Below are positions 4,208 through 5,161 of a DNA stretch of 48,691 nt, one piece after another (within the stretch, counting starts at the first letter, position 1; the number at the start of each line of letters is the position of its first letter). A program made the position numbers and the translations under genes. The DNA comes from Levilactobacillus zymae DSM 19395. Lineage in GTDB: Bacteria > Bacillota > Bacilli > Lactobacillales > Lactobacillaceae. The stretch is from assembly GCF_001434115.1 (NCBI RefSeq), contig NZ_AZDW01000024.1, positions 1 to 48,691 on the forward strand. The letters are read 5' to 3'. Below the pieces are notes generated by a model. The model worked only from the letters and a program-made list of their open reading frames with translations, was not told where the DNA came from and ran no database searches.

Positions 4208-5161
4208 TTGCTTAAACAAACAAAATATCAAAAAGTTGTCTTAGTCGGTGACGGTTCTGTCGGGTCGTCGTACGCTTTGCTCATGATGCAACAACCAGTC
4301 ATGGATGAACTGGTGATTGTCGACATCGCAAAGGACCACAGTGAGGGCGACGCCATTGATTTGGAAGACACCCAACTCTGGGGGAAGCCAAAGTGGGTTC
4401 ACGCTGGGACCTACGCCGATGCTAAGGATGCCGACCTGGTCGTAATTACGGCTGGGGTTCCCCGGAAGCCCGGTGAATCACGGTTGGACCTGGTCAACAA
4501 GAACTTGAACATTTTAAAGACGATCGTGGGCCCAGTGGTCGACAGTGGTTTTAACGGCATCTTCTTGGTCGCCGCCAACCCCGTCGACATCCTAACGGCC
4601 GCCACGCAAAAGTTGTCCGGCTTCCCAACGAACCGGGTCTTTGGGACCGGGACTTCGCTGGATACGGTCCGGTTACGCGTGGCCTTAGGCAAGCAACTGA
4701 ACTTGGCCCCGCAAACGCTGAACGTGAACGTCATCGGTGAACACGGGGATACCCAATTTGCCGCTTACTCGCACGCCATGGTCGGGGACCAAAAGTTACT
4801 TGATGTGGCTCAGGCCAAGGGCGTGTCGTTGGCGGACTTACAAGCCACGGAAGCCGCTGCCCGTAAAAAGGGTGGCCAAATCATCGGCTTGAAGGGCGCG
4901 ACCTTCTACGGGGTGGCGACCTGCTTAGCGCGCATCACGCGGGCCATTCTGGGGAACGAAGACGCGGTCTTACCCGTCGGCGCTTACCTGGATGGGGAAT
5001 ACGGCGTGAAGGACCTGTACTTAGGGACGCCAGCGCTGATCAACGCCCAAGGGGTCGCTCGGGTCTTACCACTCGACTTGTCTGCTGAAGAACGCGGCAA
5101 GATGCTCGATTCCGCCAAGGCGATGAAGAAGGTTCTCGACGACGCCATGGCCGTCAACTAA
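4208..5161 (+). CDS. LDH-family NAD-dependent dehydrogenase, predicted to prefer oxaloacetate (malate dehydrogenase)
   Basis: This is a 317-residue LDH/MDH superfamily protein. It has the NAD-binding glycine motif VGDGSVGSS (residues 13-21), Asp152 and Arg155 in TSLDTVRLR, and the catalytic His179 in IGEHGDT. Overall it resembles lactobacillar L-LDH. The substrate-specificity residue, Gln102 in standard LDH numbering, reads Arg86 here ([12 protein letters not shown] instead of TAGAPQKPGE[TS]R), with Arg92 as the usual Arg109. Changing Gln102 to Arg is the classical engineered switch from lactate to malate dehydrogenase. Glu107 and Thr246 keep their LDH identity (Glu90, Thr232), so the site is a hybrid. 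The start is TTG at 4208, set 9 bases after GAAAGGG. The neighbours are a LysR regulator and citrate/fumarate genes. Plain L-LDH or a branched 2-hydroxyacid dehydrogenase remain possible. Confidence 0.85.

Follow-up and report, generated by a model that had tools for sequence, protein, structure and literature searches.

A candidate malate dehydrogenase derived from L-lactate dehydrogenase accompanies citrate-to-succinate genes in Levilactobacillus zymae and other Lactobacillaceae

We analyzed a 48,691-nucleotide stretch of Levilactobacillus zymae DSM 19395 (assembly GCF_001434115.1, contig NZ_AZDW01000024.1; hereafter the window). From its open reading frame (ORF), its Pfam and NCBIfam matches, and its place in a phylogenetic tree, the gene at 4208..5161 (+ strand) encodes a 2-hydroxyacid dehydrogenase of the lactate dehydrogenase (LDH) family that carries Arg102, Gly236, and Gly237. 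It is very probably an NADH-dependent L-malate dehydrogenase (MDH) that arose by LDH duplication within Lactobacillaceae and takes part in the flow from citrate to succinate, a function strongly inferred from sequence comparison. An earlier note on this DNA had proposed just such an LDH-derived MDH, and the tree, convergent active-site residues, gene neighborhood, and co-occurrence across genomes all support that proposal. This analysis adds one origin within the family, a convergent change at positions 236-237, the co-occurrence within the genus, and the tie to papers on L. plantarum and L. fermentum. Published work is cited by PMC number, for the portions available to us.

An LDH-family protein with arginine at the specificity position

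The ORF is open (317 aa, TTG start), and its product matches Pfam Ldh_1_N and Ldh_1_C. Alignment placed Arg86 against the Gln of the solved LDH 1ez4, which we take to be an L. pentosus-type enzyme; where the specificity loop of 1ez4 reads TAGAPQKPGESR, the window protein has an Arg-type loop. This confirms the previously reported Arg at LDH position 102, the substrate-specificity residue, although its CGG codon lies at 4463..4465 (+), 8 bases away from the 4471-4474 region given for it. The catalytic core of the LDH/MDH superfamily is complete, with Arg109, Asp168, Arg171, and His195 found as R92, D152, R155, and H179, invariant in 88/88 aligned rows. Glu107 and Thr246 are LDH-like (E90 and T232 in the alignment), and on both the core and these two residues the earlier reading was accurate. 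The codons for Gly222-Gly223, at 4871..4876 (+; coordinates from 4208 + 3 × (n − 1)), correspond to LDH 236-237 and are MDH-like, versus the Ala-Tyr of LDHs.

Comparison with a 93%-identical orthologue gave a dN of 0.041 and a dS of 0.97 (dN/dS ~0.04), and the gene is under purifying selection. A recent mutation or sequencing error behind Arg102 is excluded by this ratio together with Arg102 orthologues at 70-98% identity. Chance or a sequencing artefact is further excluded because Arg occupies the site in 45/45 Lactobacillaceae proteins of the same kind, against 68 Gln-type LDHs.

By profile score, the protein lies above the cut-offs of both NCBIfam L-LDH models (TIGR01771, 358.4 bits against 303.55) and below those of the listed MDH models, so automatic annotation would call it an L-LDH, as had been anticipated. 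The best 24 of its relatives with solved structures are LDHs or unnamed. Its descent is that of a canonical L-LDH (TIGR01771), nested in the Lactobacillaceae LDHs, but its residues are not, with Arg86 in place of Gln102 and Gly222-Gly223 in place of Ala236-Tyr237. It carries the residues of the MDH functional class (Arg102, Gly236, and Gly/Ala237) and stands outside the LDH-like MDH clade, scoring 192.8 on TIGR01763 (cut-off 351.85) and 256.8 on PRK06223 (cut-off 283), having E90 and T232 rather than Met107 and Ala246, and grouping apart from MDHs in the tree. Hydroxyisocaproate dehydrogenases (HicDHs) have neither Gln nor Arg at residue 102 and a loop insertion (PMC4109310); the window protein has Arg102 and a loop of LDH length. 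By tree and AU test, it also falls outside the clade of clostridial Arg102 MDHs of the Ccel_0137 type.

A single Arg102 clade nested in lactobacillar LDHs

A scan for the Arg102-Glu107 motif in one genome per species returned at least 118 stretches, and all counts derived from it are lower bounds. Translation of the loci recovered the motif in 118/118 listed stretches, one of which (L117) lacked an LDH match. By the titles of their records, at least 39 of the listed stretches come from Lactobacillaceae, and the other 79 listed are mostly clostridial. Among the matches listed, the lactobacillar genera include Lactobacillus, Limosilactobacillus, Lactiplantibacillus, Secundilactobacillus, Furfurilactobacillus, Levilactobacillus, Lentilactobacillus, and Companilactobacillus; the protein of Levilactobacillus acidifarinae (L058) is a 98% match to the window protein.

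Within the genus, the Arg102 gene is present in 8 of 35 genomes (70-100% identity) and a second homologue, at 55-61%, in 35/35. Direct reading of the sequences gave Arg102 and Gly236-Gly237 in 8/8 of the former (G457 was read as L058, whose coordinates match), and the second homologue has Gln102 in all 7 genus genomes read. Four genomes (G265, G461, G462, and G464) have an additional LDH/MDH-family protein, 33-35% identical and in one case with an in-frame stop, which is perhaps of the HicDH type.

The phylogeny was reconstructed from 88 rows picked for spread from 186 proteins, with the specificity-loop columns removed and the tree rooted on four MDHs. All 32 Lactobacillaceae Arg102 rows formed one clade (support 100/98) nested among the Gln102 LDHs of the family; the two groups together (60 rows, 100/100) in turn fall within the Bacilli LDHs. 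The R/Q state at position 102 needs two changes on this tree, and forcing all Arg102 rows (Lactobacillaceae, Clostridia, and MDHs) together costs 87 log units and is rejected (p-AU 3e-52). Because the Arg102 clade is nested in Gln102 LDHs and a single Arg102 clade is rejected, the topology argues that an LDH of this family changed secondarily to an MDH. The tree and the AU test reject acquisition of a clostridial or Bacillus MDH by horizontal transfer. The lower identity of the L. plantarum protein to the window protein (56%, against about 60% for Gln102 LDHs) first suggested several independent Q-to-R changes inside Lactobacillaceae; with one clade at 100/98, these are unsupported.

The earlier note had asked whether Arg102 members form a clade linked to cit and fum genes, and those of Lactobacillaceae do. 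It had also suggested that the case would be an independent, partial conversion; the change is less partial than described, with positions 100, 236, and 237 also in the MDH state. Moreover, the predicted conversion is that of a clade common to many Lactobacillaceae and is not peculiar to the window gene.

Canonical LDHs have been argued to derive from an MDH (PMC4109310). With that ancestral root, the lactobacillar enzymes would have passed from an MDH to an LDH before regaining Arg102; the direction rests on that root and is not proved by our own tree, which was rooted on four MDHs.

Convergence with MDHs at first-shell positions

Residue counts over the 186-protein set revealed Gly236 in 45/45 Lactobacillaceae Arg102 proteins, with Gly at 237 in 43 and Ala in 2, versus Gln102-Ala236-Tyr237 in 68/68 Gln102 LDHs. 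Arg102, Gly236, and Gly/Ala237 occur in 9/9 MDHs with Met107. The Arg102-Glu107 proteins from outside Lactobacillaceae have Gly236 in 58/64, Ala236 in 6/64, and Ala237 in 55/64.

At a threshold of at least 80% in both the Arg102 clade and the Lactobacillaceae LDHs, which we chose and on which the set depends, 8 of 320 positions separate the two groups (window residues 33, 35, 84, 86, 147, 222, 223, and 250). At residues 84, 86, 222, and 223, equivalent to LDH 100, 102, 236, and 237 in our own alignment, the clade has the amino acid found in true MDHs; this does not apply to the remaining four separating positions. Arg102, Gly236, and Gly237 are among 16 first-shell MDH residues (PMC4109310), and the presence of 3/8 separating positions in that shell has a chance p of 0.005, or of 0.04 (2/7) when 102, the starting point, is left out. 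Positions 236 and 237 are thus first-shell sites that the earlier note overlooked.

First-shell positions 240, 245, 246, and 250, together with residue 107, stay LDH-like in the Arg102 clade, and Ile240, Thr246, and Glu107 are shared with the clostridial tree rows. Residue 199, Met in MDHs, varies within the clade (Ser, Glu, or Gln) and is Gln in the window protein. Whole-sequence identity to MDHs is 34.7% for the Arg102 clade and 35.2% for Gln102 LDHs; because overall identity is not raised, the resemblance to MDHs is local to the active site. When E. coli MDH was turned into an LDH, Gly210, at the 236 site, was reportedly one of the residues changed. The residues changed in that conversion numbered five (PMC3268733).

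Gene neighborhood and proposed route

The earlier note had described citrate lyase, fumarase, fumarate reductase, and DASS carrier genes in the context of the enzyme gene, the last three as adjacent. These genes are present downstream, but "adjacent" is loose, with three genes before fumC: a LysR-type regulator gene beside the enzyme gene (5365..6270, +; Pfam HTH_1 and LysR_substrate), a pyruvate-oxidase-like gene (6646-8391), and a ribF-like gene, the last two named from their ORFs. The orthologous locus of genome G373 is without these three genes, and its Arg102 gene lies 0.4 kb from fumC. L. acidifarinae (L058) has the pyruvate-oxidase-like gene at the corresponding position, and G373 (L151) does not.

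Next in the window is fumC (9788..11185, +; Pfam Lyase_1 and FumaraseC_C), encoding a class II fumarase predicted to convert malate to fumarate. An FMN reductase-type flavoprotein (11238..11861, +; Pfam FMN_red, no NCBIfam match at 1e-30) may donate electrons to the product of the following gene, a flavocytochrome c-type flavoprotein (11887..13281, +; NCBIfam flavocytochrome c models above cut-off) that we propose to be a fumarate reductase. The DASS-family carrier (13350..14768, +; Pfam Na_sulph_symp, NCBIfam TIGR00785) is a putative citrate carrier, possibly a citrate/succinate exchanger. Two more DASS carriers, 68% and 61% identical to it, are encoded elsewhere in the genome (G000:C49:49892-51307 and G000:C28:58411-59811). 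The citDEF genes (15085..17841, +; Pfam HpcH_HpaI for citE, and CitF, with citD named from position and ORF) specify citrate lyase, which splits citrate into acetate and oxaloacetate. The lyase maturation genes citG, citX, and citC (19798..22279, −) were named from the sequence of their ORFs and have homologues with cit genes in relatives. A malic-enzyme-type protein of the mae/CitM type (22890..24044, −; Pfam malic and Malic_M) could offer a competing fate for oxaloacetate or malate.

We infer a route in which oxaloacetate is the substrate, NADH the preferred cofactor, and succinate the end product. Duplication of a canonical L-LDH within Lactobacillaceae would have given the enzyme gene. Citrate would enter by the DASS carrier and be cleaved by citrate lyase to acetate and oxaloacetate. 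From the closing loop, Arg102 would pair with the second carboxylate of oxaloacetate, for which Gly236-Gly237 would give room, while His195 and Asp168 would transfer the proton and NADH the hydride, yielding malate. FumC would convert malate to fumarate, which the flavocytochrome c-type reductase would reduce to succinate, perhaps with electrons from the FMN reductase. Each pass from citrate to succinate would use two electron pairs, and with malate carried onward in this way, citrate would serve as an electron sink.

Linkage and co-occurrence across genomes

In 30 of the 39 listed Lactobacillaceae records, fumC, a flavocytochrome c gene, DASS, mae, or cit genes lie in the piece examined, some of these records resting on a single cit gene (citG in L097, citX in L102). 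Three more were counted as linked: L058 (G457 by coordinates), where fumC starts 5.9 kb further on; L109, through its longer piece L171; and L118, through a truncated DASS-like ORF where the piece ends, judged by eye. Near the 39 listed genes, fumC was counted 19 times, the flavocytochrome c gene and DASS 17 times each, and mae 7 times. Gene orders vary by genus (fumC-frd-gene-DASS; gene-fumC-DASS; gene-DASS-fumC; gene-abh-citR-mae-cit), and because they differ between genera, the linkage has survived rearrangement.

The controls were 16 Gln102 LDH neighborhoods from 20 regions, after removal of three Arg102 loci (L170-L172) and of L169, which lacks an LDH; they are high-scoring matches and not a random draw. 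Each control piece exceeds 8 kb, 9 come from genomes that also have an Arg102 gene, and none contains any of these genes. Within the genus, a DASS orthologue (≥80% identity) is present in 8/8 genomes with the Arg102 gene and in 0/27 others. Fisher tests gave p = 2.5e-9 for linkage (33/39 versus 0/16) and p = 4e-8 for this co-occurrence, both values being too small given the relatedness of the genomes, which leaves the counts phylogenetically non-independent. At 41% identity, two more genus genomes have a DASS gene. With fumC present in 33/35 genus genomes, its occurrence by itself does not follow that of the Arg102 gene, but in each of the 8 genus genomes with an Arg102 gene no more than 4.7 kb separates the two.

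No partner gene was found near the Arg102 gene in the piece examined for 6 of the 39 records (L012, L030, L036, L044, L055, and L078), and fumC lies elsewhere in the genome in 6/6. In the Limosilactobacillus-like records L012, L030, L055, and L078, the Arg102 gene is beside a thiD/pdxK-like kinase gene, and in the Lactobacillus records L036 and L044, ABC-transporter-like ORFs are near it (all named by us).

At least 21 of the 79 listed Arg102-Glu107 pieces from outside Lactobacillaceae have a malic-enzyme gene, as in the C. cellulolyticum/C. thermocellum pair (L007, L013, L016, L031, L038, L042, L043, L045, L047, L057, L064, L068, L075, L077, L091, L093, L094, L099, L101, L103, and L120). L094, the one of these put through the profile scan, exceeds the cut-offs of both L-LDH models and of PRK06223, an MDH subfamily model. 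A Krumholzibacteriia record (L025:3280-5200) contains two adjoining LDH/MDH-family genes with the loops RKPGERR and, of MDH type, RRPGMDR. On an L. plantarum plasmid (L233:4838-7853; NZ_CP092502.1), a Gln102 LDH gene is flanked by two IS30-like copies with the same protein accession, a composite-transposon-like arrangement.

Family members in the rest of the genome

The assembly (2.70 Mb, 59 contigs, 99.98% complete) contains two Ldh_1 genes, the window gene and a Gln102 LDH. A true MDH elsewhere in the genome, which the earlier note held would, together with no loss of succinate on deletion, tell against its proposal, was sought, and the assembly yielded no third Ldh_1 gene and no match to Ldh_2 or Mqo. 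One malolactic enzyme is encoded on another contig, by which malate could also drain to lactate, and the malic-type gene lies within the cit cluster; decarboxylation of oxaloacetate by such a mae/CitM-type enzyme may be an alternative fate.

Discussion

Taken at its annotation, the window protein would be a second L-LDH that regenerates NAD+ with pyruvate from citrate-derived oxaloacetate, its residue changes reflecting drift or fine tuning. The L-LDH model scores and the solved relatives fit that account, as does the treatment of the L. plantarum gene as an LDH (PMC6459948, PMC4895336, PMC9124760); in PMC9124760, lower lactate in citP mutants is taken as fitting lower L-ldh expression. It is nonetheless very unlikely to hold, with Arg102, Gly236, and Gly/Ala237 together in all 45 members and a canonical Gln102 LDH already in the genome. 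In a Bacillus LDH, moreover, Q102R alone lowered pyruvate activity over 8000-fold, with the warning that this enzyme may be an exception because the opposite substitution did not convert two MDHs (PMC4109310). Arg102 and a pocket that Gly236-Gly237 should enlarge would also suit a different dicarboxylic or bulky 2-oxoacid, such as 2-oxoglutarate, ketomalonate, or a sulfonated acid, and the departure of residue 199 from the Met of MDHs points the same way. Yet Arg102 with Gly236 is the MDH pattern too, and the neighboring genes are predicted to make oxaloacetate and use malate, so that we give such a substrate hardly any credence.

An MDH might instead work mainly with malic or malolactic enzyme, in a malate shunt or malate oxidation rather than in citrate-to-succinate reduction. 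The malic-enzyme genes of the non-Lactobacillaceae Arg102 pieces are consistent with this, as are mae near 7 of the 39 listed lactobacillar genes, the malic-type gene 17.7 kb from the enzyme gene in the window, and the malolactic enzyme in the genome. Because fumC, the flavocytochrome c gene, and DASS all outnumber mae near the listed genes, we regard this role as improbable for the lactobacillar enzymes and favor an MDH of the citrate-to-succinate branch.

For that preferred reading, we think it likely that an LDH reverted to an MDH once in the ancestry of Lactobacillaceae, with parallel first-shell changes at 102, 236, and 237, against the MDH-to-LDH direction and as a natural counterpart of the Gln102Arg enzyme. 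This protein would supply the MDH of citrate-using lactobacilli, hidden by an L-LDH label. No natural LDH-to-MDH change is named in section 6 of PMC4109310. The case offers a single origin in our tree, many descendants, Gln102 sister genes that persist in the same genomes, and a pathway setting, so that one can test in what order the changes at 102, 236, and 237 arose and what epistasis links them. The lactobacillar gene named L-LDH is probably the MDH of the citrate-to-succinate branch, which would affect metabolic models and the engineering of succinate or flavor.

Several reports on lactobacilli bear on this prediction. An mdh is present in L. plantarum 80, a possible converter of citrate to succinate; L. 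fermentum 222 has fumC and frdC with its malate dehydrogenase gene reported missing (PMC4604094). In L. fermentum DR9, a strain other than 222, fumC, a flavocytochrome c gene, an "L-lactate dehydrogenase" gene, and DASS stand in a row, with citCDE 2.4 kb further on, and this "L-lactate dehydrogenase" has Arg102 and Gly-Gly. If our reading is true, the MDH missing from strain 222 could likewise be hidden behind an L-LDH label. Conversion of citrate to succinate in L. plantarum goes with expression of the lp_1112 fumarase (PMC3389018), and a review describes succinate formation from citrate in this species using a malate dehydrogenase, with no mention of the Arg102 gene in the part available (PMC7555314).

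In L. plantarum XJ25, knockout of citP, which lies beside L-ldh and citR, stops citrate use (PMC9124760). In MRSc, with citrate as the sole added acid, malate rose from 0.06 g/L at the start to 0.07, 0.10, and 0.17 in citrate users and stood at 0.05 in the citP mutant (PMC9124760); neither "succinate" nor "succinic" occurs in the available text of that paper. The XJ25 "L-ldh" primers translate to VPRKP and ISQKG. Since the Arg102 motif VPRKP is found in 38/45 clade members versus 0/66 Gln102 LDHs, this L-ldh appears, in our reading, to be an Arg102 gene; the primers were not found in the L. plantarum record L027 within 2-3 mismatches and match at the translation level only. We found no enzyme assay of a lactobacillar Arg102-clade member in the literature searched, nor any statement there, with most subscription journals outside the search, of the LDH origin or Arg102 nature of the lactobacillar enzyme.

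Comparison with known systems

The L. plantarum protein of L027 belongs to the same clade as the window protein, is 56% identical to it, and has the same cit/DASS/mae neighborhood. By gene order with lp_1105 mae, lp_1109 citF, and lp_1112 fum, its gene is apparently ldhL2 (lp_1101) of Lactiplantibacillus plantarum. That gene is named an LDH in PMC6459948 and PMC4895336, unlike the MDH proposed here.

The "LDH-like" MDHs share Arg102, Gly236, and Gly/Ala237 with the window protein and have Val, Ile, or Leu at 100 (9 rows), whereas their Met107, Ala246, Val240, and Pro250 are absent from the window protein, which lies outside their clade. Those compared are presumably of the B. subtilis Mdh type. 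Gln102Arg B. stearothermophilus LDH reportedly keeps Glu107 and Thr246. It represents the same change of specificity in an LDH scaffold (PMC4109310), but as an engineered single change, whereas the case in the window is natural and joined by positions 100, 236, and 237.

A clostridial parallel is Ccel_0137 of C. cellulolyticum, together with Cthe_0345 of C. thermocellum. Ccel_0137, first predicted to be an L-LDH, has Arg at the 102 site and adjoins a malic enzyme gene; 28% of extract MDH activity is left in its mutant, and its authors, working with extracts, call it the primary MDH and suggest that both clostridial paralogues carry out both reactions (PMC3268733). The R. hungatei protein L094, which stood in for the Ccel_0137 sequence in our residue and tree comparisons, shares Glu107, Thr246, and Gly236 with the window protein and also keeps Ile240. 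The clostridial type differs in its lineage, outside the Bacilli LDHs, in its malic enzyme neighbor in place of fumC, DASS, and cit genes (PMC3268733; L094), and at position 237, which is Ala in 55/64 non-Lactobacillaceae proteins and Gly in the window protein.
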